IMG/VR virus record: IMGVR_UViG_3300020578_005105
Coordinates: 1 to 64,000 of that record
Source of the DNA: a virus
Direction: 5' to 3' (one strand)
Length of the DNA: 64,000 nt
Below are positions 14,080-35,815 of this stretch, piece after piece (position 1 is the first letter of the stretch; the number at the start of each line of letters is the position of its first letter). Made by a program: the position numbers and the translations under genes. Below the pieces are notes generated by a model that saw only the letters and a list, made by a program, of their open reading frames with translations, was not told the origin of the DNA and did not search any database.

Positions 14080-14092
14080 GCTTAATAAACCC

Positions 14093-15544: not shown

Positions 15545-15966
15545 AAATACCTGTGTTTTTCCTCTATGATTATGTGTTTCCAAACTTCATTCTACCGAAC
15601 GCTACACCACCTGAGATAGGTGTGATAAACTATCTCCACACGCTGTATTCTAATAAACTGCGCACAGAAAGTTTCTTTGATATCAATCTAGAAACACCGT
15701 CAAGCAACATGAAAATGATTTTTGATGAACAATTGGGAACTTGGCCTAATAGCGTACAACATAATGGCTCGTATTTCAAAAACAATTGTATGCACGATTT
15801 GATTGATGTTATTGAAAGCTCTGTATACTATGGAAAGAAAAAGGGACACAAGAAATACATCTATTCTATTAAAGTTACCCCACACTTTACTAAATTCACG
15901 GGTAAAGATTGGTCTGGAAGTAAGTTGAACGGTGAGTATTTCTGGAAGCATATTTCAGCGGAAGTG
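14495..15966 (+). repeat. 39-base identical tract shared by glycosyltransferase-like genes A and B
   Basis: Bases 14495-14533 and 15928-15966 are identical over 39 positions, starting AACGGTGAGTATTTCTGG. The flanking coding sequence of the two paralogues has diverged. The tract encodes NGEYFWKHISAEV. Such a short island points to recent gene conversion or strong selection on both DNA and protein. Confidence 0.85.
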
Positions 15967-18085: not shown

Positions 18086-19539
18086 AATGTGTTTACAGCA
18101 ACTGGTTCACTGATGAGTTGGGTAACAGATATCCTTTACCCAACGTAATGCCAGACCCGCTTATTAAGTTTGCTTATAAACACTTTCTAAATGAAGGTCA
18201 CAGGATTTTAGATAATAAAAATTTTTTAGAGAATGAGCTAAGCAAAGAGAATGACAAGGAAATATTGCGGTATTATCATTGCAATTTCTATAGCTTTTTT
18301 AAAAAACATAATGAAGCAAACAATCTTGTTGATGAAAATCAGATAGAAGAAAATTGTACTTACATCTATCCCATTGAATTGAAGAACTATGATATGTTGT
18401 GGATTCCACAAACATATACTCTAAATGGAGTAGAGCATACCTATACCGTCATAGATACTTTTTCTGACCGATTATTAACTTTACTTCGTGAGAAAAAAGT
18501 GAAGATTGTAGCTAGTATTCCGTTTGAGCCAATCAATGATGTGTCAGGAGTAGTGACCTTTCGTAAAACCTTACAAGAACATGGTATTTTTCATGATGAT
18601 GCCATTGTGTGTGTCGGCGGAAACGAGTACGTTAATACAGATAACATCAAGACCTATGAGGTTAATCTGCCATTAACACAAGCGGGCGTTGAACTCTACA
18701 AGTTCGAGAAAACGAAAGAATATTTTCGGGGTGGTCTTGGATATGAGTGTCAATATGTATTACCTGAAGATTTAGATGCGACCCAGATGCGAGATAAAAA
18801 ATTTCTTTCGTTCAACCGGTCTATGAAACGGTATCACAGAGTCGCATTGGCATATACTGCCTTAAAACATAATTTGCTTGATGACGGCATTTTTAGCTTT
18901 TTGGGAGGTGATTTATTGTTCCTAACAAATGATGCCTTTAATGATGTACAGCGGGATTTAAGTCATTATTTGGACAGTTATCTCAATCATGAAATTGTTT
19001 TAGTTGGTGCTGATATTAGCCCAGTTAACTACTACACAGAAAAAATAATTAACCTACTCCCATATGAAGTCGATACACAGCATCTATCTTTAGAAGCAAA
19101 ATGTGGATTTACAACAAACAACAACAAGAAAGAATTCTATTCTCAAACTTATGTTAACATAACAACTGAATCTAGATTCACTGCAAACAAAGGTGTATTC
19201 TTTTCAGAAAAAACATATCGACCTATAGCGAATCTACAGCCATTCATCATGCTAGGTGATGCAGGCACACTAAAAGAACTACACAAAATAGGATTTAAAA
19301 CGTTCCATCCATTCATAGATGAGAGCTATGACACAGTTGATGATGCCAGAACAAGATTTAAAATGATAAGTGAGGAGATATTGAAGTTACGCAAAATGTC
19401 TCTAGAAGAAATTCATAACTGGTATTATTCTATAACAGATGTATTGCAGCACAATCAAAATTTATTAATGAGTTATTATAATGTTAACCCCTTTGAAACT
19501 GCTTTGAAAAAGCTAGTGAGAGATACCAATGGAATTTAA
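18070..19539 (+). CDS. Glycosyltransferase-like protein C
   Basis: The 489-residue third member of the family keeps the C-terminal signature SEKTYRPIANLQPFIM, GTLKELHKIGFKTF and HPFIDESYD but has a diverged N-terminal half. FLSFNRSMKRYHR resembles the donor-binding region of related phage transferases. It overlaps the upstream gene by 16 bases and the downstream SDR gene by 11. By analogy with A and B it should transfer a sugar. Confidence 0.6.
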   Translation: MDSILKCVYSNWFTDELGNRYPLPNVMPDPLIKFAYKHFLNEGHRILDNKNFLENELSKENDKEILRYYHCNFYSFFKKHNEANNLVDENQIEENCTYIYPIELKNYDMLWIPQTYTLNGVEHTYTVIDTFSDRLLTLLREKKVKIVASIPFEPINDVSGVVTFRKTLQEHGIFHDDAIVCVGGNEYVNTDNIKTYEVNLPLTQAGVELYKFEKTKEYFRGGLGYECQYVLPEDLDATQMRDKKFLSFNRSMKRYHRVALAYTALKHNLLDDGIFSFLGGDLLFLTNDAFNDVQRDLSHYLDSYLNHEIVLVGADISPVNYYTEKIINLLPYEVDTQHLSLEAKCGFTTNNNKKEFYSQTYVNITTESRFTANKGVFFSEKTYRPIANLQPFIMLGDAGTLKELHKIGFKTFHPFIDESYDTVDDARTRFKMISEEILKLRKMSLEEIHNWYYSITDVLQHNQNLLMSYYNVNPFETALKKLVRDTNGI

Positions 19540-20512
19540 AGATAAAGTTGTACTAGTAACTGGCGCCAATGGTCTAGTTGGTATGCCGACTGTTAGAAAG
19601 TGTGTTGAAGCTGGTGCAACAAAAGTATATGCAGTAGATTTGAAATTTTCTGACCGCATGGTTAGAATGGCAGTAGATTCTTCTGGTGTGATAGAATTAC
19701 TGGAAACAGACTTGACGTACTATCATAATTGTGAGCAATTGTTCCGAAAAGAAAAAGTTGACATTGTATTGCACGTTGCCGGTGTCAAGGGGTCTCCATC
19801 TAGAACAGCCAAATGCCCTGCTGATTATGTGTTTCCAATGTTGATGTTCAATACAAACATGATTAAAGCCTCGTTCGAAGCTAGTGTCGAATGGTTTGTC
19901 TATGTCTCGTCAGTTGGTGTATATAGCCCTGCTGAAGTGATGTATGAGGATAGTGTTTGGGAAACCATGCCATCTAAAAATGATTGGCATCCTGGTTGGG
20001 CAAAAAGAATGGGCGAATTGGCATTAGATTCTTTAAAAGTCCAGTATGGCTGGAAAAAATGGTCAATAATCAGACCTTCCAACATCTATGGACCCAACGA
20101 CAATTTCTCTCCTGATGCTACTGTGATAAGTTCTAATATCTGGAAGGCATTCAATACTGAAGGTGATATGATTTGTTGGGGTGATGGTTCACCGCGTCGA
20201 GATTTTGTGTTTAGTGAGGATGTTGCAGACGGAATTTTAGATGTCGTGAGATATGAAGTAAATGATGTTATAAATTTTGGTTGTGGTGAAGCCATCACGA
20301 TTAAAGATACTATTGAAACCATTGTTTCAGCATATGAGGAATGTGCTGGGAAAGTTCGGACAATCGTATGGGATACCTCTAAGCCTAATGGGGACCTGCT
20401 TCGTTTGTTAAGCACTGAAAACCAGAAAAAATACAACATCGCAGCTAAAACTAGTTTATATGACGGTATAAAAGCCTCTATAAATAGTTACAAGTCTTTT
20501 TTAGACGAATGA
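19529..20512 (+). CDS. SDR nucleotide-sugar epimerase/dehydratase-like protein 1, atypical active site
   Basis: An extended SDR of 327 residues with the NAD(P) loop VTGANGLVG, VLHVAGVKG, YVSSVGVYS, RPSNIYGPND and WGDGSPRRDFVFSEDVA. It resembles GDP-fucose synthase and related epimerases. The catalytic YxxxK is altered: the sequence reads HPGWAKRMGE, with Pro where Tyr should stand four residues before Lys. Either another Tyr serves or the chemistry differs. Overlaps the upstream gene by 11 bases. Confidence 0.85.
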   Translation: MEFKDKVVLVTGANGLVGMPTVRKCVEAGATKVYAVDLKFSDRMVRMAVDSSGVIELLETDLTYYHNCEQLFRKEKVDIVLHVAGVKGSPSRTAKCPADYVFPMLMFNTNMIKASFEASVEWFVYVSSVGVYSPAEVMYEDSVWETMPSKNDWHPGWAKRMGELALDSLKVQYGWKKWSIIRPSNIYGPNDNFSPDATVISSNIWKAFNTEGDMICWGDGSPRRDFVFSEDVADGILDVVRYEVNDVINFGCGEAITIKDTIETIVSAYEECAGKVRTIVWDTSKPNGDLLRLLSTENQKKYNIAAKTSLYDGIKASINSYKSFLDE

Positions 20513-20546
20513 GATATGTATTTAGTATAACTTAGTATGGAGAGTA

Positions 20547-21521
20547 ATGATGACCAAAGATATGAAGATTTTAATAACCGGTGGTTCAGGATTAGTTGGA
20601 CAAAATTTAACAAATAGATTAGTAGAGCAAGGATACACAAATCTTGTCGTGCATTTGCACAAAAGAAGGGTGCGAAATCCTCTTAGCTCAGTAACATATG
20701 TCCATGGGAATTTAATGGACTATGAAACATGCCTAAACATCACAAAGGGTGTAGATGTTGTTATACATGCAGCTGCCAGCACATCTAATGCTGTAGACAC
20801 GGTTGTTGACCCTCTAGCGCATGTAACACCCAACGTTGCAATGAACAATTTCTTAATTGACAGTTCTTATCGCAACAAAATTAAAAAGTACATCTTTATT
20901 TCTTCTAATACAGTCTACCCGCCTAAGGGCGATGAGCCTGTAACAGAATCCGATTTTCTGTTTGACCCACCATACCCCGTGTATTTTCCTGTAGGGTGGA
21001 TGAAGCGATATGCTGAAGTACAATGCGAACTATACGCTAAGTATCTACCAAATCCCATGACAACAGTTGTGGTGCGCCCAGCAAATCTATATGGGCCTCA
21101 TGATAAATTTGACTTTAATAAATGCCATGTAACGCCTGCAACTATACGAAAAGTGGCTGATAACATGAATCCTATTCCCATATGGGGAGATGGTTCAGAA
21201 CTGCGAGATTTAGTGTATATTGATGACTTTGTAGAGGCTATTCAAATAATCATGGAACAGCAAAACACTTATGATGTTTTCAATGTGGGGTCTAACAAAG
21301 TATACTCGGTGAACGAGGTGCTTGATGTGATGAAACAGTTAGTCAACAATTCCAATCCTGTTGAATATGTTCAAGGTAAACCTTCCATGATACCGGTAAG
21401 AAAAATTGATTCTAGCAAAATCAAGACACTATTGGGTTGGGAAGCGAAAACGAGTTTAGAAGATGGATTACTTAAAACCCATGATTGGTATCTGAGACAT
21501 AAAGATGAATTTAGGGGATAA
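20547..21521 (+). CDS. SDR nucleotide-sugar epimerase/dehydratase-like protein 2, atypical active site
   Basis: A 324-residue extended SDR with ITGGSGLVGQN, VVIHAAAST, FISSNTVYP, RPANLYGPHDKFD and IWGDGSELRDLVYIDDF. As in its neighbour the YxxxK Tyr is missing: FPVGWMKRYAE places Val four residues before Lys. Its two-part likeness to SDR 1 suggests a duplicated pair that may form a heterodimer or do successive steps. A GGAG ribosome site lies before ATG 20547; ATG 20550 is also possible. Confidence 0.85.
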   Translation: MMTKDMKILITGGSGLVGQNLTNRLVEQGYTNLVVHLHKRRVRNPLSSVTYVHGNLMDYETCLNITKGVDVVIHAAASTSNAVDTVVDPLAHVTPNVAMNNFLIDSSYRNKIKKYIFISSNTVYPPKGDEPVTESDFLFDPPYPVYFPVGWMKRYAEVQCELYAKYLPNPMTTVVVRPANLYGPHDKFDFNKCHVTPATIRKVADNMNPIPIWGDGSELRDLVYIDDFVEAIQIIMEQQNTYDVFNVGSNKVYSVNEVLDVMKQLVNNSNPVEYVQGKPSMIPVRKIDSSKIKTLLGWEAKTSLEDGLLKTHDWYLRHKDEFRG

Positions 21522-21563
21522 TGTTTTTACACACATCAAGACAAATTTTTTGGGGTTTAAGAT

Positions 21564-22502
21564 ATGACCAAGGTATTAATCACAGGAGGAGCGGGATATT
21601 TAGGTTCTACTATAGCCGAGCATCTATTATCGGCGGGGTATAGTGTATCCATTCTAGATAACTTGTTGTACAAACAAATATCCATACTGCATCTTTTCAA
21701 GAACCCAAACTTCCAATTCATGTTAGGTGATGTGCGTGATGTTTCTTTGTTACAAAAGTTAGTAAAGGAACATGAGGTGATTATTCCATTAGCTGCAATT
21801 GTAGGGATGCCGGCATGTAAAAAGAATCCCCAGTTAACTATTGATGTAAACTATAAACAGATTGAAAACATACTAGCTGTGCTGACAGACGTTCAGAAAT
21901 TGATTCTCCCTAACACCAATAGTCAGTATGGGTCATCCGAGCATATCATAACCGAAGAAAGCCCATTCAAACCTTTGTCACTATATGCAGAAACCAAATG
22001 CGATGCTGAATCTGCTATGCTAAGAAATGGCAATGGAGTTTCACTACGCTTAGCAACGGTGTTTGGCGTTTCACCAAGAATGCGTCAAGACCTATTGGTA
22101 AACGATTTCGTATACAAATCCATCGTCGATGGATATTTGGTCTTGTTTGAGGGGCATTTCAAACGAAACTATATCCATGTTCAGGATATTGCGAGAACGT
22201 TTCAATTTGTGATTGAAAACTATGATAAATGTAAAGGGCAGGCGTTTAATGTGGGGCTTTCAACAGCCAACTTGAGCAAGCTAGAATTAGCAGAAAAAAT
22301 TAAGCAGTATATCCCTTCGTTGGTCATTAAACAAGATGAGTTCAAGGAAGATTTTGATAAGAGAAATTACATCGTGTCCAACGAGAAACTGGAAAAGTTA
22401 GGATGGCGTCCTGCCTTTGATTTAAATTATGGAATCAAACAGTTAATACATGCATATCAAGTTGTTATAACCCATAATAATAGAAATTTCACAAACCTAT
22501 AA
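21564..22502 (+). CDS. NAD-dependent nucleotide-sugar epimerase/dehydratase
   Basis: A 312-residue extended SDR with a complete catalytic set: ITGGAGYLGS for NAD, PNTNSQYG for the Ser/Thr step, and LYAETK as YxxxK. RLATVFGVSPRMR and FKRNYIHVQDIA fit substrate-binding loops of GalE/RmlB-like enzymes. Unlike the two SDR proteins before it, its active site looks normal. The exact sugar is not readable from sequence. Confidence 0.88.
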   Translation: MTKVLITGGAGYLGSTIAEHLLSAGYSVSILDNLLYKQISILHLFKNPNFQFMLGDVRDVSLLQKLVKEHEVIIPLAAIVGMPACKKNPQLTIDVNYKQIENILAVLTDVQKLILPNTNSQYGSSEHIITEESPFKPLSLYAETKCDAESAMLRNGNGVSLRLATVFGVSPRMRQDLLVNDFVYKSIVDGYLVLFEGHFKRNYIHVQDIARTFQFVIENYDKCKGQAFNVGLSTANLSKLELAEKIKQYIPSLVIKQDEFKEDFDKRNYIVSNEKLEKLGWRPAFDLNYGIKQLIHAYQVVITHNNRNFTNL

Positions 22503-22511
22503 GGAGTTATC

Positions 22512-22928
22512 ATGCCAGAAAGAAAGTATTTGCACACACTAGGTGATTTGATTGACCGGTTGAGTATCGTACAGCTAAAAGAAGTCTTTATTCCTGAATT
22601 CAAAGAAGAATATTCCAAAGAAATCCAGGACATTACTCACGACATTCAAATTGTATTGGATGAACATAAGGGCGTCATTGACGCTGAAACCATCCGAGCA
22701 ATTGTGGTAGTTGCACAAATGAATCTTCACATCTGGCACAATGAATCGAATTATCGGAGAGGAATCAAAAATGGTAACAATCTTGAATTAACGCACGGGC
22801 TGAACGGTATTCGCAACACTGCTAAAAATGTAATCCAGGAAGCTGTTGGTGGAAGAAAAGATTACAAAGTGGATTGTTTAGCTGCTGACTTCAAGGATTG
22901 GGAAATTAGCTGGAAGAAGAAAGCATGA
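22512..22928 (+). CDS. Hypothetical protein in sugar block, 138 aa
   Basis: A helical, charged protein starting MPERKYLHTLGDLIDRLSIV with strong AAGGAG 8 bases upstream. LGDLIDRLSI and LHIWHNESNYRRG look like conserved motifs; I have an impression of similar proteins next to glycosyltransferases but cannot name the family. It couples by ATGA to a small membrane protein. Confidence 0.7.
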   Translation: MPERKYLHTLGDLIDRLSIVQLKEVFIPEFKEEYSKEIQDITHDIQIVLDEHKGVIDAETIRAIVVVAQMNLHIWHNESNYRRGIKNGNNLELTHGLNGIRNTAKNVIQEAVGGRKDYKVDCLAADFKDWEISWKKKA

Positions 22929-23137
22929 AGGTAATAGAAACCAAAAAAAGAACCACGGTGAAAACCGTCACATGGAGAATTGTGGCTGTTTTCAATTCGT
23001 GGCTTATATTGACATTAGATGTGGGGAACACTAACTTTCACAATGCAGTGTTAATGAACATAACCGGGTTTTTTGCGTTTTATTTTTTTGAACGTGTTTG
23101 GAGTAATATAAAATATGAGCGATATACAGTTAAATAG
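22925..23137 (+). CDS. DUF2061 small membrane protein, copy 2
   Basis: The 70-residue protein has KTVTWRIVAVFNSWLIL and then a second helix ending FFAFYFFERVWSNIKY, the two-helix DUF2061 layout (TWR near the start, ExxWxxIK at the end). It differs strongly from copy 1 at 4038. Its place among sugar genes may point to a membrane step, but no function is known. Confidence 0.8.
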   Translation: MKVIETKKRTTVKTVTWRIVAVFNSWLILTLDVGNTNFHNAVLMNITGFFAFYFFERVWSNIKYERYTVK

Positions 23138-24059
23138 GAAAGAATTTTATAAGAGATTTCATGGTATTAACTTACCCATCGATCACCCCAATTATTCCCA
23201 TGTCAGTATGTTAAGAGATTGGAGAATTGACCACGATTATCCTTGGACCAAGTGCCATAAGGAAAAAACTCCTATCAAAGGAATGATTTTTTCTGGTTGC
23301 TCGTTTACTTGGGGTCAGGGGTTATACTATTATAGCAATCTAGATTCTTTACGCGAACCTCCCCCAGATTGCTTTGATTCACTGTTGGTGAATCCTAGTC
23401 ATATCAAATTCATGGAAACAGTAAGATATCCCCGCCTAGTTGCCAAACATTTCAACACCTTTGAGCAAGTGGCACCTTTTAACGGCGGTTCTAATGAATC
23501 AGCTATAGAATACTGCATGCAAAAACTTTTCTTAGATCCTGACAATTATTACAAACCAGCTGATTTTAGTGATTATTCGCATTGTGTGTTTCAGATGACG
23601 CAATGGCAACGTAAGCATATTTTCATCAACTATAAAGGGCAACAATTAGATATCCACAATAACATACACAAAAGTTCTGACATTTTAACTGATTATTTGT
23701 TAGAAAATAACATAACGATTGAGGATTGGGAAGAATATGGGATACAGTTGAACGTGCATGATGTTAAGACTCATTTACAATTTCTAGAAAGTAAGGGAAT
23801 CAAGACATATCTTCTTACATGGCCAGATTATTACGTCAAATACATAGAAAAGGATTCTTGGTTGAAAGAAAGACACATCGTGTTTGATGTTTTGGGATAT
23901 AGCTACAACTCATTGGAGAGTCTTATGAATGCTGTACGAACTATGACTATTAAATATGATTTTCAGGAATTTAACAACACACCAAAAGACCATCACCCTT
24001 CCTTAAGATGCCATCGGCTAATTGCTGACACTCTCATAAAGAGAATTGAAAATGAGTAA
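23115..24059 (+). CDS. SGNH/GDSL hydrolase-like protein 3
   Basis: The 314-residue protein has the nucleophile block GMIFSGCSFTWGQGLYY and a clear block V, KDHHPSLRCHRLIAD. FNGGSNESAIEY may be the Gly-Asn block. It resembles the 33118 protein most: both share GCSFTxGxGLxYY, FQxTxW and DxHPSxxCHxxIA. It overlaps its upstream neighbour by 23 bases. Confidence 0.68.
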   Translation: MSDIQLNRKEFYKRFHGINLPIDHPNYSHVSMLRDWRIDHDYPWTKCHKEKTPIKGMIFSGCSFTWGQGLYYYSNLDSLREPPPDCFDSLLVNPSHIKFMETVRYPRLVAKHFNTFEQVAPFNGGSNESAIEYCMQKLFLDPDNYYKPADFSDYSHCVFQMTQWQRKHIFINYKGQQLDIHNNIHKSSDILTDYLLENNITIEDWEEYGIQLNVHDVKTHLQFLESKGIKTYLLTWPDYYVKYIEKDSWLKERHIVFDVLGYSYNSLESLMNAVRTMTIKYDFQEFNNTPKDHHPSLRCHRLIADTLIKRIENE

Positions 24060-24591
24060 TCCTGTCCCGTCACCCTATAAAGATGCATTGTCTACAGCCA
24101 TGGAATCTATTGCTGCAATTGAGGACAGTATATTCATTGGTCAACAGATTGTGTATGCTGGAAACCCTATGAGCACAACTTTAGGGGGTGTTTCCAAGGA
24201 TAAAATGATTGAATTACCTGTCATGGAAGAAACCCAGATGGGCATGACGTTAGGATTGGCAATGACCGGGAAAGTTGTAGTATCTTTCTATCCTAGATGG
24301 GATTTCATCATCCTCGCCTCGAATCAATTGATTAACCATGTAGATAAATTCAAGCACATGACGGGCAAGGACGTTCATATAATGATTCGTCTAGGAAAAG
24401 GTAGTGATAAACCACTAGACCCTGGTCATCAACATAAAGGAAATTATTTTAGCGAGTATCAGAAAATGTGTCCCAACATAAAGTTTTACGACTTACGGAC
24501 ACCTGAGGACATCGCTACGTCATATCAATCTGCTATGGATAACTCTGGTATTCATGTGTTGGTAGAATACCCTGAATTATATTATGCCTAA
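24052..24591 (+). CDS. Thiamine-diphosphate enzyme, beta (pyrimidine-domain) subunit
   Basis: It resembles the pyrimidine-binding domain of E1-beta/transketolase: PYKDALSTAMESIA at the start and ELPVMEETQMGMTLGLAMTGKVVVSFYPRWDF, in which a Glu would activate the thiamine ring. The third, C-terminal domain of normal E1-beta is absent (179 aa). With the alpha subunit at 17456 it would form a minimal two-chain enzyme. I start at ATG 24052, overlapping the upstream stop by 8 bases. Confidence 0.78.
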   Translation: MSNPVPSPYKDALSTAMESIAAIEDSIFIGQQIVYAGNPMSTTLGGVSKDKMIELPVMEETQMGMTLGLAMTGKVVVSFYPRWDFIILASNQLINHVDKFKHMTGKDVHIMIRLGKGSDKPLDPGHQHKGNYFSEYQKMCPNIKFYDLRTPEDIATSYQSAMDNSGIHVLVEYPELYYA

Positions 24592-24694
24592 GTACAAGGG
24601 GTATGAATATTTTTATGTGAATGGAAGTTCACATATTGAGTATGCAGCTATTGTTAACAACTGGTTGGATGATAATTTGGAGATGAGTAGATGA
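24584..24694 (+). CDS. Small protein, 36 aa
   Basis: ATG 24584 to TGA 24692-24694 fills the gap between two genes and overlaps both (8 bases upstream, ATGA downstream). The peptide starts MPKYKGYEYFYVNGSSHIEY and ends in an acidic helix. Overlaps at both ends in the manner of its neighbours argue that it is translated. Function unknown. Confidence 0.6.
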   Translation: MPKYKGYEYFYVNGSSHIEYAAIVNNWLDDNLEMSR

Positions 24695-26142
24695 TAATAT
24701 GGGGTATTTCCGCCAACAGTCATGATGCAGCCATCTCGGTTATTAATGACCGCGACATATTATTTGCGTCGCAATCTGAGCGATATTCAGGGGTGAAAAA
24801 TGATGCTCACCTGAACCCTGGAATTATTTCTGACGCTAAACAATACGGTGAACCTGACCTAGTAGTATGGTATGAGCGCCCGTTCATGAAATCGTTGAGG
24901 CAATTGCGCGCTGGACAGGGGTGGATAAACAACAACATCAAGCAATATCTACATAGCTATAACATCACGGCGCCTATCACAACAGTTGACCACCATAATA
25001 GCCATGCGGCAGGTGGATACTATACCTCAAACTTTGATGAAGCCGCTGTGTTGGTGATAGATGCCATCGGTGAGTTTGATACCACAACGATTTGGCATGG
25101 GCAGGGCAAGAAACTGGAAAAGAAGTTCTCTATCAAATATCCACACAGCCTAGGGTTGTGGTATTCTGCCATGACACAACGGGTGGGGCTGAAACCAAAC
25201 GAAGAAGAATACATCTTAATGGGTATGGCAGCATATGGTGACCCATTGAAATACACTTCTATTATTCTGGAAGATTTTTTTGATACCCGAGAAACATTGA
25301 AGTTGACTCATAATCTACATCGTGGATGCCTTTGGTGGCGACCTGAATTGACCACACAACAGGATATGTATGATATTGCAGCAGCCACACAATTTGTGTA
25401 TGAGTTGTATCTACATGATTTGTTGGATAAAGCTAAGAAATTGACTGATAGTAAAAATCTAGTGTTGGGTGGAGGATGTGCGTTGAACTGTGTTGCCAAC
25501 AGTATAGCTTTTCAGTACTTTGACTGTGTGTGGATTATGCCTAATCCAGGAGATGCGGGTAATAGTCTTGGAGCAATCGCGGCCTATCAACAAGAGTTTT
25601 TAAATTGGCAGGGACCATACCTTGGACACAAGATGGGAACAAAATACCCCACAAAACAATTAATTGAAACTTTACAAAAACAAAAAATTGTCGGTGTAGC
25701 ATCTGGCAGAGCTGAGTTTGGTCCCAGAGCGTTAGGTCACAGAAGTTTGTTGGCGGATCCGCGCGGTGATGACATCAAGGATGCAGTGAATGCCATTAAG
25801 AAGCGTCAGAAGTTTCGTCCTTTTGCTCCTGCTATTCTGGCTGAACATGCTTATAAATATTTTCATATGCCCACCGCTGAAACGCCGTATATGCAGTATA
25901 CTGCTTTATGTAAACAACCCCTAGCCTTTCCTGCCATCATTCATGCTGATGGCACCTCTAGAGTTCAAACAGTATCCAAGACAGACTCCCCTGACTTTTA
26001 TGAGTTTCTGCAAGAATGGTACCGGGAAACCGGGTGCCCTATGGTGTTGAACACAAGTTTAAATGTCAAAGGGAAGCCTATGGTAAATGACAGAAAGGAT
26101 GCTTTGATTTTCGAAAACACTTATAACGTTACTGTTCTATGA
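24691..26142 (+). CDS. Carbamoyltransferase (NodU/CmcH/TobZ family)
   Basis: The family transfers carbamoyl from carbamoyl phosphate via carbamoyl-AMP to hydroxyl groups of sugars or antibiotics. The 483-residue protein has the ASKHA-type N terminus WGISANSHDAAIS, metal-binding VDHHNSHAAGGYY, LGGGCALNCVAN, and the C-terminal part with GRAEFGPRALGHRSLLADPR and NTSLNVKGKP. It likely decorates the sugar made by neighbouring enzymes. Both ends overlap genes by ATGA. Confidence 0.93.
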   Translation: MIIWGISANSHDAAISVINDRDILFASQSERYSGVKNDAHLNPGIISDAKQYGEPDLVVWYERPFMKSLRQLRAGQGWINNNIKQYLHSYNITAPITTVDHHNSHAAGGYYTSNFDEAAVLVIDAIGEFDTTTIWHGQGKKLEKKFSIKYPHSLGLWYSAMTQRVGLKPNEEEYILMGMAAYGDPLKYTSIILEDFFDTRETLKLTHNLHRGCLWWRPELTTQQDMYDIAAATQFVYELYLHDLLDKAKKLTDSKNLVLGGGCALNCVANSIAFQYFDCVWIMPNPGDAGNSLGAIAAYQQEFLNWQGPYLGHKMGTKYPTKQLIETLQKQKIVGVASGRAEFGPRALGHRSLLADPRGDDIKDAVNAIKKRQKFRPFAPAILAEHAYKYFHMPTAETPYMQYTALCKQPLAFPAIIHADGTSRVQTVSKTDSPDFYEFLQEWYRETGCPMVLNTSLNVKGKPMVNDRKDALIFENTYNVTVL

Positions 26143-27377
26143 AAAAAGAATTATTCGTGATGGAAAATAAAACCATGTGTCTTTTTCCATGGACACATAT
26201 GTATGTACATACTAGCGGTGATGTATATCCATGTTGCATTGCAGAAACTACCAGGAAAGAAATGTCGTTAGGCAATGTGAAACAAAATTCTATTGAAGAA
26301 ATATGGAACAATGAGAAATATCGTGAATTACGAAAAAATATGGTTGAGGGTACTCCTGTTTCGCAATGTAATCAATGCTATACACGAGAACTCACCGAAC
26401 GGCGCAATTACAGACACGCTAGTTTTGATATGTTTCGACACCATGCCCCCTCACTTATAGAAAATACCAATGATGATTATTCTCTCAAAGAAGTTGATAT
26501 AAAATATTTTGATGTTCGATTTAGTAATCTTTGTAGCTTCAAGTGTCGCTATTGTTCTGAAGAATTCTCTACCAGTTGGGCAGCTGAAAACCGAAAGTAT
26601 GGAGAACAGTCAGGACTACCTACTTTGCGCCATGTGAGTAATGAGGTCCCCACATTTCTAGAAAATCTTAAATCTCACTTACATGGTGTAGAACATATGT
26701 ATTTTGCTGGCGGTGAACCTTTAATGACAGAAGAACATTATGAGGTGTTAGAGACTCTAATCAATGAAAATAAAACCGATGTGAAACTCAGATATAGCAG
26801 TAATTGCAGCACTATAACACACAAGCACTATAATGTGATTGATTTATGGCAGAAATTTAAGTCTGTAGATTTTCGAGCTAGTTTGGATTCAGTTGGTACT
26901 AGAGCTGAGTATATGAGAAAAGGTACTAAGTGGGATGAAGTGGTGGCTAATATTTTAGAGATAAAGAAAAACGTACCTCATGTTAATGTTGGTATTAATT
27001 GTGTCGTGAGTGTCTATAATATCCTGACACTTTCTGAATTCCTACACTCACTAAATGCCTCTGGAGTATTAGATTGGGAAAAAACTAGCGTTATTCTTTA
27101 TCCCATCAGCTCTTATAATTTCCTGGATGTTAATGCATTACCTGTTGATTTAAAGAAAAAAGCCAAAGAAAAACTCGACGTGCTATTACAAACTATGCCC
27201 CCTTACAGTTGTGTAGGTCCCGATATTAACATCATCAGAAATTACATTAATTATGATGAAGTGGACCCTACTGTATGGAAAGACTTTAAAATGTTCAACG
27301 AGTCGTTGGACGAGATACGAAACGAGAAATTCGTGACCATTTTCCCAGAACTAGCAGAATGGTATCAGTCCATTTAA
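26139..27377 (+). CDS. Twitch-type radical SAM protein 3
   Basis: The radical SAM core is CSFKCRYC (Cys132, 136, 139), followed by FAGGEPLM. An N-terminal module CLFPWTHMYVHTSGDVYPCC with Cys14, Cys32/33 and the CNQC pair Cys77/80 resembles a SPASM/twitch auxiliary cluster domain moved to the front. At 412 aa it is shorter than copies 1 and 2 and less similar to them. Last gene of the accessory block; a promoter follows. Confidence 0.88.
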   Translation: MKKELFVMENKTMCLFPWTHMYVHTSGDVYPCCIAETTRKEMSLGNVKQNSIEEIWNNEKYRELRKNMVEGTPVSQCNQCYTRELTERRNYRHASFDMFRHHAPSLIENTNDDYSLKEVDIKYFDVRFSNLCSFKCRYCSEEFSTSWAAENRKYGEQSGLPTLRHVSNEVPTFLENLKSHLHGVEHMYFAGGEPLMTEEHYEVLETLINENKTDVKLRYSSNCSTITHKHYNVIDLWQKFKSVDFRASLDSVGTRAEYMRKGTKWDEVVANILEIKKNVPHVNVGINCVVSVYNILTLSEFLHSLNASGVLDWEKTSVILYPISSYNFLDVNALPVDLKKKAKEKLDVLLQTMPPYSCVGPDINIIRNYINYDEVDPTVWKDFKMFNESLDEIRNEKFVTIFPELAEWYQSI

Positions 27378-29270: not shown

Positions 29271-30026
29271 ATGTCCAGAAAAAAGCGCCTTAAGTTGGTC
29301 ACGTCCCAAACTTATATTCTTCAAGAGGATCAGGAATCCAAACACAAAGTACGTGGTTCAGATTTAAAAGAAATCTGGGCCCTCACAGAAAATCAGGAGA
29401 ACTTTTTCAACTACTATCGTAAAGGACACAAAGCCATTCTATGTCATGGAGTGGCAGGGACAGGAAAAACCTATATTGCTATGCACAGCGCTTTCAAAGA
29501 GGTTTTGGAAAATTCAGGTTACAAAAAAGTGGTGGTGGTTCGCTCAGCAGTACCATCTCGGGATATTGGATTTCTTCCCGGCAATGAAAAAGAAAAAGTG
29601 GAGGTGTATTCACAACCTTATCAAGAAATTTGCGCAGATTTGTTCCCTAGATTTGGAGAACGCGCCTACAACAAACTGAAAGAACAAAGTTTAATTCATT
29701 TCATGGTCACTTCCTATGTTCGTGGGTTGACCTTGGACAACTGCATTGTGATTGTGGATGAGGCTCAGAACATGAATGACATGGAACTGAACAGCATCAT
29801 GACCCGGGTTGGTACCAATACCAAAATCATTTTCTGTGGTGATTTTCGCCAAACAGATTTACAGAAACGGTCAGATATGTCCGGGTTAAAGCAGTTCATG
29901 ATTATCGCTCACCATATGCCTTCCTTCCGTCACGTGGAATTCGGGGTGGAGGACATTGTTCGTGGACCCTTGGTGAAGGAATACATCCTGGCTAGAATGG
30001 CGTGCGAGGGCATGGCTGTGGCTTAA
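29271..30026 (+). CDS. phoH: PhoH-family ATPase
   Basis: A 251-residue P-loop protein with Walker A GVAGTGKT, VRSAVPSRDIGFLPG, Walker B IVIVDEAQN and CGDFRQTD, all typical of PhoH. It is a common marine phage marker gene with unclear role (possible RNA helicase or ribonuclease partner). It has only a weak ribosome site. The start is the first ATG after the terminator. Confidence 0.95.
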   Translation: MSRKKRLKLVTSQTYILQEDQESKHKVRGSDLKEIWALTENQENFFNYYRKGHKAILCHGVAGTGKTYIAMHSAFKEVLENSGYKKVVVVRSAVPSRDIGFLPGNEKEKVEVYSQPYQEICADLFPRFGERAYNKLKEQSLIHFMVTSYVRGLTLDNCIVIVDEAQNMNDMELNSIMTRVGTNTKIIFCGDFRQTDLQKRSDMSGLKQFMIIAHHMPSFRHVEFGVEDIVRGPLVKEYILARMACEGMAVA

Positions 30027-30036
30027 ATAACAGAGC

Positions 30037-30065
30037 TTGACAAACAGGTCTAGGAATGTTATGTT
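30037..30065 (+). promoter_or_regulatory. Sigma-70-type promoter with possible leaderless transcript
   Basis: TTGACA at 30037-30042, 17 bases, TATGTT at 30060-30065. The expected start of transcription, about 7 bases on, coincides with the ATG of the nuclease gene at 30072. Confidence 0.75.
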
Positions 30066-30071
30066 TACAGT

Positions 30072-30731
30072 ATGAAAACATTCCTACATGACCCGGTAAC
30101 AATAGAAACCATTTCCGCTGTGAACCAGGAAGATGGAACCAGAGCCTATCAGACACCTGATGGTAGGCTCTATCCATCTGTCACCACAGTGTTGGCTGAG
30201 CACACCAAACAAGGCATCCAGGAATGGAGAGCCAGAGTGGGAGAAATGGAAGCCAACAAAGTGTCGCGACAAGCTGCCACGTGGGGTACCAGATTTCACA
30301 CCATCACAGAAAAGTATCTTCAGAACAATTTGTCTGGTGGTGATTTGTCACTTTGGGATTATGAAATGTTCAAGGTGGCCAATCCTGTGTTGGATAGAAT
30401 TGACAACATTCGAGCACAAGAAGTGGCCTTGTGGTCACATCATCTACGTTTGGCAGGACGTGTGGATTGTATAGCTGAGTTTGATGGCAAGTTGAGTGTG
30501 ATTGACTTCAAAACGGCACGCCGAGAAAAGGATCTGGAACATATCCAACATTACTTCATGCAGGCGGCTGCCTATGCCATCATGTTTGAAGAACGCACCA
30601 AGATACCAGTGAGCAGATTGACCATTCTGATAGCTGTGTCAGATGGATTCATGCAAGTGTTTGAAAGCAAACGAGACCATCACGTGGAACAATTGCTGTA
30701 CTATCGTGATGTGTACGAAGCCTATAAATAA
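30072..30731 (+). CDS. PD-(D/E)XK exonuclease (RecB/Cas4/MGME1-like)
   Basis: The catalytic core is visible as GRVDCIAEFDGKLSVIDFKTA: the Asp of GRVD, then D-F-K (D-x-K), with QAAAYAIMFEE as the downstream motif QxxxY. An N-terminal YPSVTTVLAEH and WGTRFHTITEKY (His) are also typical of phage and mitochondrial MGME1-like single-strand exonucleases. 219 aa. Likely processes recombination ends in phage DNA. No Shine-Dalgarno is seen at usual distance. Confidence 0.88.
   Translation: MKTFLHDPVTIETISAVNQEDGTRAYQTPDGRLYPSVTTVLAEHTKQGIQEWRARVGEMEANKVSRQAATWGTRFHTITEKYLQNNLSGGDLSLWDYEMFKVANPVLDRIDNIRAQEVALWSHHLRLAGRVDCIAEFDGKLSVIDFKTARREKDLEHIQHYFMQAAAYAIMFEERTKIPVSRLTILIAVSDGFMQVFESKRDHHVEQLLYYRDVYEAYK
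30723..30730 (+). promoter_or_regulatory. T4-type late promoter before tmRNA
   Basis: TATAAATA overlaps the last codons of the nuclease gene. T4 late transcripts start about 6-7 bases downstream, here at about 30737, which is where the tmRNA acceptor piece begins. Confidence 0.6.
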
Positions 30732-30736
30732 CTAAG

Positions 30737-30995
30737 TAGGATGGTAGTAGAACAGCTCAAATTGAAACATGGCTTGGACGAGGGTTCGATTCCCTCCATC
30801 TCCATTCAGGTACACCAATTTCGGGGATGACAGGTTTCGACAGGTTAAGGATTAGATGAGAGAGCTACCCGATAGGCGACTGCCGTAAGCAGAGCAAAAA
30901 CATCAACAGGCACAAATAATATGCCTCTTGCATTAGCTGCCTAATTAGGTAGCATGCCGGGTTCGGGGTTTCCCTGGGAACAGAAAACCCCACTA
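30737..30995 (+). ncRNA. ssrA: Circularly permuted two-piece tmRNA
   Basis: The acceptor piece comes first: T arm GAGGG-TTCGATT-CCCTC (30780-30796), then CATCTCC (30797-30803) and discriminator A. After an 18-base spacer the coding piece starts GGGGATG (30823-30829) and continues with ACAGGTTTCGACAGG, as at the tmRNA 5' end. GGGGATG pairs with CATCTCC over seven positions including G3-U70, the alanine identity pair. GAGCT (30862) pairs with AGCTC (30754). A tag frame from GCA 30894 to TAA 30942-30944 encodes AKTSTGTNNMPLALAA. An H-type pseudoknot follows (GTTC 30961 with GAAC 30978; GGGGTTT 30965 with AAACCCC 30985). CCA is not encoded. Exact ends and the resume codon are uncertain. Confidence 0.93.
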
Positions 30996-31001
30996 AATTT
31001 T

Positions 31002-31592
31002 ATGATTATAACTATTCCAGAACAAGCTGAACATATCAATGTTTTGATATCAGGTGGAGCTGACAGCACGCTGTTAGCGTATCTTGTGGCCACACAATCA
31101 AATAAACCAATTGTTTTACATACATTGAGTCCTGCAAAACACGTTTATCAGAATGTGATTGTTCCTATTTTAAATTATTTGGATCAACGTTTTGAAAGAA
31201 AGTTTCAGGTTGTGAACATCAGGAGACAGAAACTCCTTATTCGAGAAGCAGCTGAATATATTCTTAGTGTGTATCCTGGAGTAGTTTTGACAGGATGCAA
31301 CAAAGTGGTTACTCATTTTACTCCAACCGTGTATATTAAAGGAGATACACCTCCTATCCGAGGGGAAGTGAGTTCAGAAAACCATATACGACCTTTCATC
31401 AATTTGGACAAAATTGAAATACTAAGAATATATCAAGAGCATAATATACTAGATTTGTTAAGTTTGACACAATCTTGTGGGTTACGAAAACTAAAACGAT
31501 GTGGTGGGTGCTATTTCTGTATGGAAAGAGCCTGGGCTGTTGGTGCGCTTGGTATAAATGATATAAATAATACAGAAACTTCGACCATTTAA
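31002..31592 (+). CDS. queC: QueC-like PP-loop ATPase, copy 2
   Basis: The 196-residue protein has the PP-loop ISGGADST and the C-terminal zinc site C-x7-C-x2-C-x2-C ending in MERAWAV. It is paralogous to the 5230 copy (EILRIYQEHNILDLLSLTQSC against DILKLYLKHDIMDLLPLTHTC). I start at ATG 31002, because an upstream in-frame ATG at 30954 lies inside the tmRNA. No ribosome site is evident. It may have a substrate different from that of copy 1. Confidence 0.82.
   Translation: MIITIPEQAEHINVLISGGADSTLLAYLVATQSNKPIVLHTLSPAKHVYQNVIVPILNYLDQRFERKFQVVNIRRQKLLIREAAEYILSVYPGVVLTGCNKVVTHFTPTVYIKGDTPPIRGEVSSENHIRPFINLDKIEILRIYQEHNILDLLSLTQSCGLRKLKRCGGCYFCMERAWAVGALGINDINNTETSTI
31562..31569 (+). promoter_or_regulatory. 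T4-type late promoter for S8 protease
   Basis: TATAAATA lies in the last codons of QueC-like copy 2, 33 bases before the protease ATG, with AAGGAACT as ribosome site between. Confidence 0.55.
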
Positions 31593-31602
31593 AGGAACTT
31601 TC

Positions 31603-33111
31603 ATGAAAACATTTAATATTGCCTATTCTTCAGACATCAGTGCCACAACACTTCTAGAAACATTGACCGTTCAGGGCGCTCTTCTATATCATCTAGAAGG
31701 TGTTCGCGTTATCGGTCTAGAGGTGGAAGATGATTTTTCAGCAGAAACTTTGGAATCTATTGAAGGTGTTATTCTAGTTGAACTGGATGTAGAAACAACT
31801 GTGACATCTCATGCTGAGTGGCATCAATTTCGCTTAGTTACAGATGCGCTTCCCATGAAACAAAAATACAATCCTATTTCTGAAGGAGATAATTCTGTTG
31901 TGTATTTGATGGACTCAGGAGTGAATGATAGCCATTCAGAATTCGAAGGAGCTAACATTGAACACTTGTATTCGTTCAATGAAGATTTTTCTGATGTTAT
32001 AGGACACGGAACAGTTGTTGCCAGTGTGATTAATGGTCAAACTATTGGTGTGTCTAGAAATGCCGCCATCAAAAGTGTGAAAATTCCTTTCGGTTCAGTC
32101 ACCATAGGTAAATTGCTTATTGCATTCAATGCAGTTTTAGAAGACCATTTAATCACACCCGACGTGGTGAAAGTTGTGAACTGTTCCTGGAGTGTACCCA
32201 AGAGTGCATTGCTGGACAGCAAAGTAACAGAATTGCAAAATGCTGGACTGGTGGTTGTAGCTGCAGCAGGTAACACTGGAGTTGCAGCAGACACACTATC
32301 TCCTGTGGGATTGAACACTGTTATTGGTGTAGCAGCATCAGATGCCTATGACCGTGTGGTGTCTTGGGCTACAGGACTATCAAGCAACTATGGTCCTGAA
32401 GTGGACATAACTGCTCCTGGCGTAGATGTCACTGCAGCTTCCATCTATGGTGGCTATGCAACTGTTTCAGGTACTTCCATCAGTGCTGGTGTAGTGTCTG
32501 GTGTTCTAGCTCAATACATTGAGCAACATCCAGAAGCAGATGCTGAAACACTGAAGGATATGTTGTTGGAATATGCAGCAGAAGATATGTTGTTTCGTAA
32601 TGAAGCCATCTATGGAACAACACCCAACCGTCTGGTGAAGGCACTGTATATTGCCGGAACAAAAATTTGGAGTCCTAACATCTTCAGCATGTTCCCAGTT
32701 AAAAAACAAGAAACCACAACCTTGTCTTTCACCACAACAACACCAATAACAACAGCAGAATATGTGGATTGTCAACTTCAAACCAATTTCTATAAAAAAC
32801 TTCCCTGGGTGTCTGGTTCTTTTGCAGATGGAGTGCTCACACTAACAGTAGCACCAACTGAAGATGTTGTGGTAGGAAAATACCTGATTCAAATAACCTC
32901 AACTGATGCCAAAAATGAGAAGTATTTCACAGGATATTATCTGGGTGTGTATAATGAAGAAGTAAGTGAATTGGATACAGTAGAGATTGAAAAATACCTT
33001 ACAGAAATAGATGGAGTAGACACGCTAACAGTGGTTACTGGGGCATGCGTGTATAATGACGATTGTGCTAAGAATCAGGTATGTTTCGGTGGTTCTTGCG
33101 CTGATACATGA
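31603..33111 (+). CDS. Subtilisin-like (S8) serine protease
   Basis: The catalytic triad is complete: Asp104 in YLMDSGVND, His135 in GHGTVVAS and Ser292 in SGTSISAG, with Asn224 of AAAGNTG as oxyanion residue. The first 90 residues may be a propeptide-like domain. After the protease domain come a beta-rich region (about 365-475) and a Cys-rich tail, CVYNDDCAKNQVCFGGSC, with four cysteines. There is no signal peptide. The late promoter suggests a virion or lysis role. Confidence 0.9.
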   Translation: MKTFNIAYSSDISATTLLETLTVQGALLYHLEGVRVIGLEVEDDFSAETLESIEGVILVELDVETTVTSHAEWHQFRLVTDALPMKQKYNPISEGDNSVVYLMDSGVNDSHSEFEGANIEHLYSFNEDFSDVIGHGTVVASVINGQTIGVSRNAAIKSVKIPFGSVTIGKLLIAFNAVLEDHLITPDVVKVVNCSWSVPKSALLDSKVTELQNAGLVVVAAAGNTGVAADTLSPVGLNTVIGVAASDAYDRVVSWATGLSSNYGPEVDITAPGVDVTAASIYGGYATVSGTSISAGVVSGVLAQYIEQHPEADAETLKDMLLEYAAEDMLFRNEAIYGTTPNRLVKALYIAGTKIWSPNIFSMFPVKKQETTTLSFTTTTPITTAEYVDCQLQTNFYKKLPWVSGSFADGVLTLTVAPTEDVVVGKYLIQITSTDAKNEKYFTGYYLGVYNEEVSELDTVEIEKYLTEIDGVDTLTVVTGACVYNDDCAKNQVCFGGSCADT

Positions 33112-33900: not shown

Positions 33901-34489
33901 AAAATGGATATGGGTGAAGGTTCCCAAAACTGGCACCCGAGCTTATTTAAAAATGTTTTATCCAGATGTGGATTCCTCACTACATTTTCACTACACCTTC
34001 CACACCTTATATAACCACCATCAGAAGAAGCACTCAGGGTTCACGGTCATCAGACATCCCAGAACACGCTTCATTTCCGCGTTGAAACATTTGAGTCAAC
34101 TTGACCTGTTGGGGAATATGCCATCTGATACAATAGGGAATCTAGCAGATTTTTTATTCACCAACTTTGATAAAAATTGTGTACCCAAACATACGTTGGA
34201 AAACATTTTTTCAGTTGATTACCTTAAATACCATGAATCATTTTTTCAAACTCAGGTGTATTGGGCATATCATCCAAAAGTCACTTGGTTCAAGTATGAA
34301 AATCTACAACAGTTCAACAAATGGATTGAAACACACCTAGGATATGATACAACAAAACTGCAACAAATAGGAAAAACTGATAAACATCATTTGGACCATT
34401 TAGATTTTCAACACCCGGTATTTCAAAAAATTGTTCAACACTTGTTTCAAGATGATTTTCTACTTTTTGATTATCAGGAGGATTTATGA
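33872..34489 (+). CDS. Sulfotransferase family protein
   Basis: The 205-residue protein has WVKVPKTGTRAYLK as 5'-phosphosulfate loop and FTVIRHPRTRFISALKHL as 3'-phosphate motif (R-x-P-x-x-R-x-x-S), the pair of the carbohydrate sulfotransferase family (Sulfotransfer_2). It overlaps its upstream neighbour by 29 bases and couples by ATGA to the wall hydrolase. It would need PAPS, perhaps from the 3329 fusion. Confidence 0.82.
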   Translation: MIISSKITDEKWIWVKVPKTGTRAYLKMFYPDVDSSLHFHYTFHTLYNHHQKKHSGFTVIRHPRTRFISALKHLSQLDLLGNMPSDTIGNLADFLFTNFDKNCVPKHTLENIFSVDYLKYHESFFQTQVYWAYHPKVTWFKYENLQQFNKWIETHLGYDTTKLQQIGKTDKHHLDHLDFQHPVFQKIVQHLFQDDFLLFDYQEDL

Positions 34490-34971
34490 AAAGAATTGTT
34501 GCAATATTCATTTTGTTGTTGATGCTGTATCCTGTATCATTGAAAACCAACATGAACATTCCTGCAATAAAAGTCATTTCCATGACCTCTGAGAAGGAAT
34601 TAAGATGTCTGGCAGAAAACATTCATTACGAAGCTCCCATGGAACCCTATCTAGGTAAACTGGCTGTGGCCATGGTCACCATGAATCGTGTTCGGCATCC
34701 TGACTTTCCTAAAACCATTTGTGATGTGGTGTATCAGAGAAATTCCAGAGGGTGTCAGTTCTCCTGGACTTGTGGTGCTCGTATGAAGTTCAATGAAAAA
34801 ATTTACAATGAATCCATGAAAATTGCCAAAGCTGTCTTGACAAACCAAAGACAACTTGTTAGTTTAGAGAATGCACTATATTTTCACAACACCAAAGTGA
34901 CACCCAATTGGACATTTGCCCGACCTGTGGTACGTATCGGGGGTCACATTTTCTATGAGCCTAAAACATGA
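34486..34971 (+). CDS. SleB-type cell wall hydrolase with signal peptide
   Basis: An N-terminal signal (MKRIVAIFILLLMLYPVSL) precedes a Hydrolase_2 domain: LRCLAENIHYEA with the likely catalytic Glu, GKLAVAMVTMNRVRHPDFPKT and CQFSWTC. Such enzymes cut the glycan strand of peptidoglycan. It is the second free lytic enzyme of this phage besides the amidase. It is linked by ATGA overlaps to genes on both sides. Confidence 0.9.
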   Translation: MKRIVAIFILLLMLYPVSLKTNMNIPAIKVISMTSEKELRCLAENIHYEAPMEPYLGKLAVAMVTMNRVRHPDFPKTICDVVYQRNSRGCQFSWTCGARMKFNEKIYNESMKIAKAVLTNQRQLVSLENALYFHNTKVTPNWTFARPVVRIGGHIFYEPKT

Positions 34972-35237
34972 CTGATGAACAAGACCCGAAGCTTCTCACT
35001 GTGGAATATCTCATCACACGAGAGTTCACCAATTCCACAGATTTTTCCATACACATTGAACGAGAAGCTGTGAAAAGAAACATTGGATGTTTTGAGGCAC
35101 TTCTGGAATACTGTGAACAAAAGGGGATAGAACCTGTGGCGGTGGCCACCATGATTACCAGTTCATTGAAGGCCAAGATACAAGCAGAAGCCGAGGAAAT
35201 GAATCTGTTGAAGAAAACCGCCAAACTTCCTGTATGA
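34968..35237 (+). CDS. 33: Late transcription coactivator gp33-like
   Basis: In T4, gp33 bridges RNA polymerase and the sliding clamp at late promoters. The 89-residue protein has FSIHIEREAVKRNIG, FEALLEYCEQKGIE and SSLKAKIQAEAEEMNLLKK followed by AKLPV, which I recognise from gp33 of marine T4-like phages. Its place immediately before gp59 and gp32 is the T4 order. The many TATAAATA elements imply that the late system is present. Confidence 0.75.
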   Translation: MTDEQDPKLLTVEYLITREFTNSTDFSIHIEREAVKRNIGCFEALLEYCEQKGIEPVAVATMITSSLKAKIQAEAEEMNLLKKTAKLPV

Positions 35238-35815
35238 ACATATCTGACGCTTACAAGATTTACACTGCATTACGGCTTCACTTCACCACAGACAACTATG
35301 ACATCCGAAGTGGCATCACACCTCGGCCTCCCAAGTCAGGAGTCAAGGTCAACTTCAAAAAGAAGTTGGAAGTGTTGATGAAGCAATACAATTACAATCA
35401 GGATGAATTCATCAACTATCTGGTGGCCAATTTTCTGAATGGTAATGAGTGGGGTATTTTTGAAAACACAGGTCCAGAAATCTACACAGAATGGAAACGT
35501 ATCCAGGAAAGTTTGACCTACACCTACACACAAGATGTGAAAAATTTAGCCTGGAATGTCACCACTCTGGAAGATGCCTGGGATTGTTCCCAGGGACATC
35601 CTGTGATTCTCAGGGAGTATTGTGGTAAAAGATGTCGGTTGGAAACACTTGTAATTCTAAATAAATTGTATAGATTTACTACAGAGGTGGATGAACAGCT
35701 GGTGTTGGATCCAGTTTGGAATTCTGTCTCCAGAACCATACACAAGTACTCACCTTTCATCAAAGTGGAGAAGGATAAATTTTCAATGATTACACACAAG
35801 GCTTTCTATGAGTAG
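35234..35815 (+). CDS. 59: Helicase loader gp59
   Basis: gp59 places helicase gp41 on gp32-covered single strands. The product (193 aa; T4 217 aa) starts with DAYKIYTALRLHFTTDNYDI, like the T4 KxVYKLYxxIKxHxxxxYD opening, and ends with DEQLVLDPVWNSVSRTIHKYSPFI, similar to the T4 DEQTDNLVWNNYS region. FLNGNEWGIF resembles the middle conserved part. It lies between gp33 and gp32. Confidence 0.87.
   Translation: MNISDAYKIYTALRLHFTTDNYDIRSGITPRPPKSGVKVNFKKKLEVLMKQYNYNQDEFINYLVANFLNGNEWGIFENTGPEIYTEWKRIQESLTYTYTQDVKNLAWNVTTLEDAWDCSQGHPVILREYCGKRCRLETLVILNKLYRFTTEVDEQLVLDPVWNSVSRTIHKYSPFIKVEKDKFSMITHKAFYE

Follow-up and report, generated by a model that had tools for sequence, protein, structure and literature searches.

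A circularly permuted tmRNA gene behind a T4-type late promoter motif, conserved beside an exonuclease gene in T4-like phages

Introduction

The closest described counterpart of the gene reported here belongs to the methylophage Melnitz, from a study by Buchholz et al. Melnitz (MZ577097) was reported in 2022 to encode a two-piece transfer-messenger RNA (tmRNA). The paper counts 133 unique tmRNA structures across 402 phages, 53 of them two-piece, and finds permuted tmRNAs in 17/47 contigs clustered with Melnitz (PMC9004378). Its authors place the Melnitz tmRNA upstream of a coactivator gene, call its promoter early, propose early action and describe a promoter method that dropped non-intergenic promoters (PMC9004378). 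A tmRNA database paper gives 79 unique phage sequences (PMC11915505). Here we analyse a circularly permuted tmRNA gene in a 64,000-nucleotide stretch of viral DNA (the window), which is positions 1–64,000 of the 69,019-base IMG/VR virus record IMGVR_UViG_3300020578_005105. An earlier note, made from the letters of the window, had proposed at 30723–30995 a permuted two-piece tmRNA under a late promoter and had taken it as a pointer to the host lineage. Our sequence comparisons indicate a real and conserved phage tmRNA that is probably functional. The two-piece tmRNA of phages is already known and its wider genomic setting is new; we found no report of the wider exonuclease–tmRNA–gp33 position or of the cassette exchange proposed below in the open-access literature, a search that leaves subscription journals mostly uncovered.

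Results

Identification and anatomy of the RNA

Covariance models of Rfam 15 recovered the tmRNA above their cut-offs. RF04321 (tmRNA_permuted) matched 30743–30944 on the + strand (111.1 bits, E 8e-21, cut-off 47), and RF01850 (beta_tmRNA), the best of its clan, matched 30698–31011 on the + strand with a 9-bit margin (93 bits against a cut-off of 84). Only these two families were listed for the window, one overlapping match of the same clan being omitted by the tool. The fit to RF01850 is poor at the model's 3'-most hairpin, and in a control RF04321 also matched 5 of 14 named genomes, above the cut-off in 1. ARAGORN called no tRNA or tmRNA in the window, though it called a tmRNA in many close relatives, and BLASTN of the window tmRNA against 50,697 phage records gave no match. 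The parts that the earlier note had read in the letters (a T arm, a seven-pair acceptor stem with G3-U70, an 18-nucleotide spacer, a tag ending LALAA-stop and an H-type pseudoknot) are all present, with coordinates within a few bases:

30723–30730, +: T4-type late promoter motif TATAAATA, also the Tyr-Lys-stop end of the exonuclease gene (motif scan, conserved spacing)
30737–30804, +: acceptor (upstream) piece with the P2 5' strand, T arm, acceptor 3' strand and discriminator A (Rfam and sequence; 5' end placed from the late motif)
30780–30796, +: T arm GAGGG TTCGATT CCCTC, stem 30780–30784/30792–30796 (Rfam; 2/5 pairs change on both sides in relatives)
30797–30803, +: acceptor stem 3' strand CATCTCC, partner 30823–30829 (Rfam, alignment)
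30805–30822, +: intervening spacer of 18 nucleotides, predicted to be removed (length and sequence differ among relatives)
30823–30829, +: acceptor stem 5' strand GGGGATG, at which RNase P is predicted to generate the 5' end of the coding piece (Rfam, alignment)
30841–30847, +: P2b 3' strand, partner 30770–30776 (RNAalifold, alignment)
30865–30869, +: P2a 3' strand CTACC, partner 30743–30747 in the Rfam model (invariant; RNAalifold pairs the 5' strand elsewhere)
30909–30944, +: tag reading frame GTNNMPLALAA-stop, resume codon GGC (sequence, alignment)
30936–30953, +: hairpin containing the tag stop codon (one pair with changes on both sides)
30957–30991, +: H-type pseudoknot, CCGGG/CCTGG and GGGGTTT/AAACCCC (invariance, run lengths)

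The 3' piece precedes the 5' piece, and the seven acceptor pairs form across the 18 nucleotides and the discriminator. CCA is not encoded in the window gene, where A73 is followed by TTC.

Comparison with described systems

Melnitz, like the window, carries a permuted tmRNA on a T4-like phage with TATAAATA directly upstream, and it has the same neighbours (PhoH, PD-(D/E)XK nuclease, tmRNA, late-transcription coactivator, helicase loader). It differs in that the alpha model scores best (beta in the window), the spacer is 145 rather than 18 nucleotides, CCA is encoded, a glutamine riboswitch lies behind the tmRNA, and the promoter is also a sigma-70 match (TTGACA-17-TATAAA). At MZ577097.1 45977–46007 (L070:2478–2508) the order is TTGACA-17-TATAAATA, with TATAAATA inside the annotated tmRNA feature (45984–46436). 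In Pelagibacter phage HTVC008M a permuted tmRNA (NC_020484.1 145161–145370, + strand, above the Rfam cut-off) likewise lies between an exonuclease gene and a gene for a putative late-promoter transcription factor, with PhoH upstream; it differs from the window in its best model (alpha) and its encoded CCA. No late motif was found in the 501-nucleotide stretch of HTVC008M scanned, and its tmRNA is absent from the feature table. BUCT-ZZ01 carries a permuted tmRNA amid hypothetical genes (ON615601.1 116952–117248, − strand, above the Rfam cut-off), which is missing from the annotation table. We found no permuted tmRNA in C48C1 and Cr30.

Both family cut-offs are passed by the window RNA, which differs from RF01850 and RF04321 in having no encoded CCA, a Gly resume codon and tags of the form G[TA][YN]N[TAM]PLALAA. 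The database paper describes in mycobacteriophage DS6A a phage tmRNA relative without a coding sequence (PMC11915505), whereas the window RNA has a conserved tag and is permuted.

The earlier proposal stands in that the phage contig carries a tmRNA gene of the permuted two-piece type immediately after a T4-type late motif. Its use as a pointer to the host lineage is not supported, as the subtype model fails to track the host: the beta model is best for the window and also for the cyanophage BUCT-ZZ01 from Synechococcus (94.5 bits), and the alpha model for Melnitz, whose host belongs to Methylophilales. DNA-pattern scans of 84,980 species genomes for the host gave 0 matches and, having no positive control, support no conclusion.

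Pairing and covariation

We aligned the window with 12 relatives from IMG/VR pattern scans (alignment A1, 13 sequences) and drew a structure of 46 pairs by hand. Excluded were L001 (the window itself) and the other identical copies L006, L007, L018, L015 and L030, together with L044 (nearly a copy of L043), L045 and L047 (no 3' part), L050 and L051 (contig ends) and L054 and L055 (other type). Pairing holds in 98.5% of the cells of this alignment. Both sides change in 6/46 pairs (T stem 2, acceptor 1, P2b 2, stop hairpin 1), and cells with such changes number 23, against a shuffled mean of 7.1 and 0 to 3 in slid controls. By a contrary measure, further pair types number 9 against a shuffled mean of 10.6. 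Much of the signal in the T stem and acceptor comes from a single difference common to 6/13 sequences (GGGGATG in type A, GGGGGTG in type B) and so represents few events. No variation occurs in P2a, in the CTGC/GCAG stem or in the first stem of the pseudoknot, which are uninformative either way.

The second stem of the 3' pseudoknot is 91.2% paired, and support for this pseudoknot comes from invariance and from G-run and C-run lengths that match by eye in 4/5 relatives with longer G runs, not from column covariation. The RNAalifold consensus recovered the T stem, acceptor, P2b and stop hairpin, and paired the 3' part and the GGTAG (P2a 5') strand otherwise. The 3' pseudoknot is missing there because RNAalifold cannot draw pseudoknots.

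The tag frame

The window tag is GTNNMPLALAA, and relatives carry GAYNAPLALAA, GTYNAPLALAA and GTYNTPLALAA. The tag frame is open in 13/13 aligned sequences, among which 6 steps are synonymous and 4 change an amino acid; each of the other two frames has 2 synonymous and 8 amino-acid steps, and stops occur in 12/13 and 13/13. The resume codon of the window is GGC (Gly) at 30909. An A stands 4 nucleotides 5' of the resume codon in 13/13 sequences; it corresponds to A86 of Escherichia coli tmRNA, which sets the reading frame (PMC2481249).

The late promoter motif

The window holds 10 TATAAATA sites on both strands, against 2.2 expected, and 0/100 shuffles reach 10. Seven of the 10 precede the start of a gene or tmRNA on their own strand by at most 80 nucleotides, a count that 0/10,000 rough simulations on a hand-picked gene list equalled; an eighth joins them if a PHROG-supported open reading frame at 52766 is counted. 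No sigma-70-like pair adjoining the tmRNA late motif was found on the + strand of the window. The gene for gp33, expected alongside T4-type late promoters, is present (34968–35237). A PHROG scan of 47 open reading frames from this fragmentary record did not find the late sigma factor gp55.

Position and distribution in relatives

The tmRNA directly follows an exonuclease gene, and the conserved neighbours in the window are:

29271–30026, +: PhoH-like gene, conserved upstream neighbour (profile match, synteny)
30072–30731, +: PD-(D/E)XK exonuclease gene, immediate upstream neighbour (profile match, synteny)
34486–34971, +: endolysin gene, conserved downstream neighbour (profile match, synteny)
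34968–35237, +: gp33-type late-transcription coactivator gene (PF16805, phrog_254)
35234–35815, +: DNA helicase loader gene, presumably gp59 by its T4 name (profile match, synteny)

We scanned IMG/VR with the exonuclease protein and kept the best 80 loci of at least 600 matched stretches, so that the figures describe nearest relatives. A permuted tmRNA above the RF04321 cut-off occurs in 43/80 exonuclease records (28/40 and 15/40), or 43/64 when negatives are counted only where the contig extends 3 kb or more past the exonuclease; five of the 37 negatives had weak partial matches below the cut-off, which were not counted. All 43 tmRNAs lie on the exonuclease's strand, 15–2572 nucleotides downstream and 32 of them within 1 kb, and they represent 39 distinct RNAs. 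PhoH, exonuclease, tmRNA, endolysin, gp33, gp59 is a frequent gene order. PhoH is found upstream in 37 of the 43 loci, gp33 downstream in 28 and the helicase loader in 18, with many loci ending early. In some records without a tmRNA (L126, L128, L132, L147) gp33 comes directly after the exonuclease.

Exonuclease and tmRNA distances correlate (r = 0.61, 0/2000 permutations; 41 rows after dropping 4 duplicates), and the nearest neighbour by exonuclease is also the nearest by tmRNA in just 19/41. This pattern indicates that the tmRNA is partly inherited in place, with frequent replacement. Two tmRNAs, one in L045 from about 10830 on and one in L047 from about 3246 on, break off at nearly the same point and run into the next gene, by decay or assembly error.

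Adding Melnitz, HTVC008M and BUCT-ZZ01 to the 43 loci gave a wider set of 46 RNAs. Seven acceptor positions are paired in 45/46, which show ten stem combinations and, in 44/45, a G at position 3, although full pairing was partly selected for by a script that demanded TCC (hence U70) and a GG start and kept the best-pairing site. The exception, L134, has 6/7 pairs and a stem that is probably mislocated. CCA is encoded in 35/45 scored RNAs; the window lacks it, as do all eight loci of the window's subgroup (L073–L080). ARAGORN called 35 tags (23 distinct) at the 80 exonuclease loci; 35/35 end in AA, 33 in LAA, and 26 start with AND, counts that include duplicates and come from a program that itself favours tag-like ends.

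In a listing of tmRNA flanks with 22 rows (15 distinct over 60 nucleotides) NATAAATA, with T, G or C as its first base, is equidistant from the tmRNA in every row, and five variable bases separate it from GTAGGATGG; the fixed position was read from printed strings, with ATAAATA at one place throughout. Among the 43 exonuclease-linked loci, a late motif lies between 45 nucleotides upstream and 12 nucleotides inside the match at 22, compared with 2.7% of random 64-nucleotide windows. Of the 43, the late motif stands by itself at 11 loci, is fused to a TTGACA-like box at 17 nucleotides at 6 and is accompanied by a separate sigma-70 pair at 5, and a sigma-70 pair alone is present at 4. All eight loci of the window subgroup, including L073 with the window's own RNA, have the late motif only.

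At L009, L042, L043 and L046 the promoter and RNA start appear tandemly duplicated upstream of the tmRNA. Another phage group (L003, L005, L013, L023, L041) has TATTTAT(A/T), the late motif reversed, 48–49 nucleotides before the T-arm match; where ARAGORN called a tag in this group, which it did not in L013, it was of a kind such as GEQVELAMAA.

Possible exchange of the T-arm-to-acceptor cassette

Nine pairs of loci were compared for cassette identity, and the following two were picked for differing cassette type. Between the window and L049 the flanks are 91% and 95% identical, the RNA body 91% and the T-arm-to-acceptor cassette 57%; between L009 and L046 the values are 95% and 89%, 98% and 65%. 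The cassette contains the fast-changing spacer, which lowers identity; the stem pairs nevertheless change together. Permutation makes the T arm a direct neighbour of the two acceptor strands, so that all three could be exchanged as one cassette of about 55 nucleotides with pairing intact. Permutation may in this way ease cassette exchange.

Other genes in the window

A QueC-like PP-loop gene (31002–31592) has its ATG 10 nucleotides past the tmRNA pseudoknot and no evident ribosome-binding site, and a second QueC-like gene lies at 5230–5787. Two genes behind the tmRNA is a subtilisin-type protease gene (31603–33111) with its own TATAAATA at 31562. A large metabolic block (2307–3332 and 10346–27377) includes an adenylosuccinate-synthetase-like gene and genes for radical-SAM proteins, nucleotide-sugar epimerases and a carbamoyltransferase.

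Discussion

We consider it probable that the locus encodes a functional circularly permuted phage tmRNA that rescues ribosomes late in infection together with host SmpB. Transcription from the putative late promoter at 30723 would begin about at the start of the acceptor piece. Host RNases, including RNase P, would cut at the spacer and leave an acceptor piece (about 30737–30804) and a coding piece (30823 to about 30991), joined by the acceptor stem and P2, a predicted pairing that covariation supports. The host would add CCA, its alanyl-tRNA synthetase would charge the RNA via G3-U70, and host SmpB and EF-Tu would deliver it to ribosomes stalled on truncated mRNA. The ribosome would then resume at GGC, append GTNNMPLALAA, stop and be released, and the LAA end would direct the product to host ClpXP. 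The benefit may be free ribosomes for late structural proteins while phage or host nucleases, and possibly mRNA-cleaving defence toxins, cut mRNA. We found no SmpB gene in the window's record nor in 20 phage records, fragments included. With no SmpB found and CCA not encoded, the known pathway suggests dependence on the host's SmpB, CCA-adding enzyme, alanyl-tRNA synthetase, RNase P and ClpXP.

We favour a functional RNA because of the Rfam scores, the changes on both sides of pairs, the kept tag frame, the A before the resume codon, the fixed late motif, the synteny, the acceptor pairing and the LAA tags. Several observations weigh against it. The window RNA, having no encoded CCA, needs a host enzyme, and in the PK1 region, upstream of the tag, the single stem tried (CTGC/GCAG) is invariant and Rfam's own stem has non-standard pairs. 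No tmRNA above the cut-off was found in 37/80 exonuclease records, 21 of them with at least 3 kb of downstream contig, and at 17/43 tmRNA loci the rule applied identified no late motif and no sigma-70 pair. L045 and L047 lack the tag end and 3' part, so the RNA is either dispensable or mis-assembled there. A sigma-70-like site before the exonuclease (30037–30065) could also allow earlier expression by read-through.

Other explanations account for parts of these data. tmRNA acts on stalled ribosomes and does not select host proteins, which argues against an early-expressed phage tmRNA that tags host proteins for destruction and recycles their amino acids. This is one of two roles proposed for the Melnitz tmRNA by its authors, who place the RNA behind an early promoter (PMC9004378), and the TTGACA-17-TATAAA seen there, like the sigma-70-type elements fused to the late motif (6), separate beside it (5) or alone (4) among the 43 loci, agrees with early expression. 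The window and L073–L080 have the late motif with no adjoining sigma-70 pair, and we regard the early role as unlikely. A phage RNA acting as a decoy, which would compete for host SmpB or ribosomes and block host trans-translation, would not need the frame that is kept with synonymous changes in 13/13 sequences here, and the DS6A form has no tag; a decoy seems highly improbable.

An unselected passenger, a host tmRNA acquired by chance or as an attachment site, would fit the frequent use of tmRNA genes as integration sites described in the database paper (PMC11915505), the truncated copies in L045 and L047, and the frequent replacement implied by the low neighbour agreement (19/41). Against it stand the compensatory changes and the conserved frame seen in the phage group, the constant strand and place downstream of the exonuclease and the correlated distances, and we judge a passenger very unlikely. 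No integrase family was found among the 47 open reading frames scanned against PHROGs, of 114 listed; on this ground, and given the constant location of the gene, we do not favour an attachment site. Host contamination or a chimeric assembly is rejected as having next to no probability: nothing was found in its favour, three further IMG/VR contigs (one with 100,967 bases) contain the identical 380-nucleotide region, and the tmRNA is flanked by phage genes in an arrangement that recurs in isolates.

Late ribosome rescue by a phage-encoded tmRNA can be combined with the distribution data in a broader picture, which we offer tentatively and with slightly more doubt than belief. A large T4-like lineage may long have carried permuted tmRNA as a near-core gene, always at a single locus that has the exonuclease gene on one side and those for gp33 and the helicase loader on the other. 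Its tags would be specific to the phages, its expression in the window subgroup purely late, and a cassette of about 55 nucleotides would be exchanged. The position of TATAAATA inside the annotated Melnitz tmRNA feature calls the published idea of early expression into question; that no late promoter was reported there may be due to the dropping of non-intergenic promoters. Permuted tmRNA genes of phages are probably undercounted, since ARAGORN misses the window copy and the copies of two named phages are absent from their feature tables.

What was one published case, a methylophage and its cluster, could become a testable rule, in which many T4-like phages keep a rescue RNA at one set position, with tags that vary except for the LAA end. 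If the broader picture is true, cassette exchange would allow the charging end to be swapped independently of the tag, and these phages would run their own ribosome rescue while virion proteins are made. It would become directly testable whether late protein synthesis, or survival of mRNA-cutting defences, requires trans-translation in phages.
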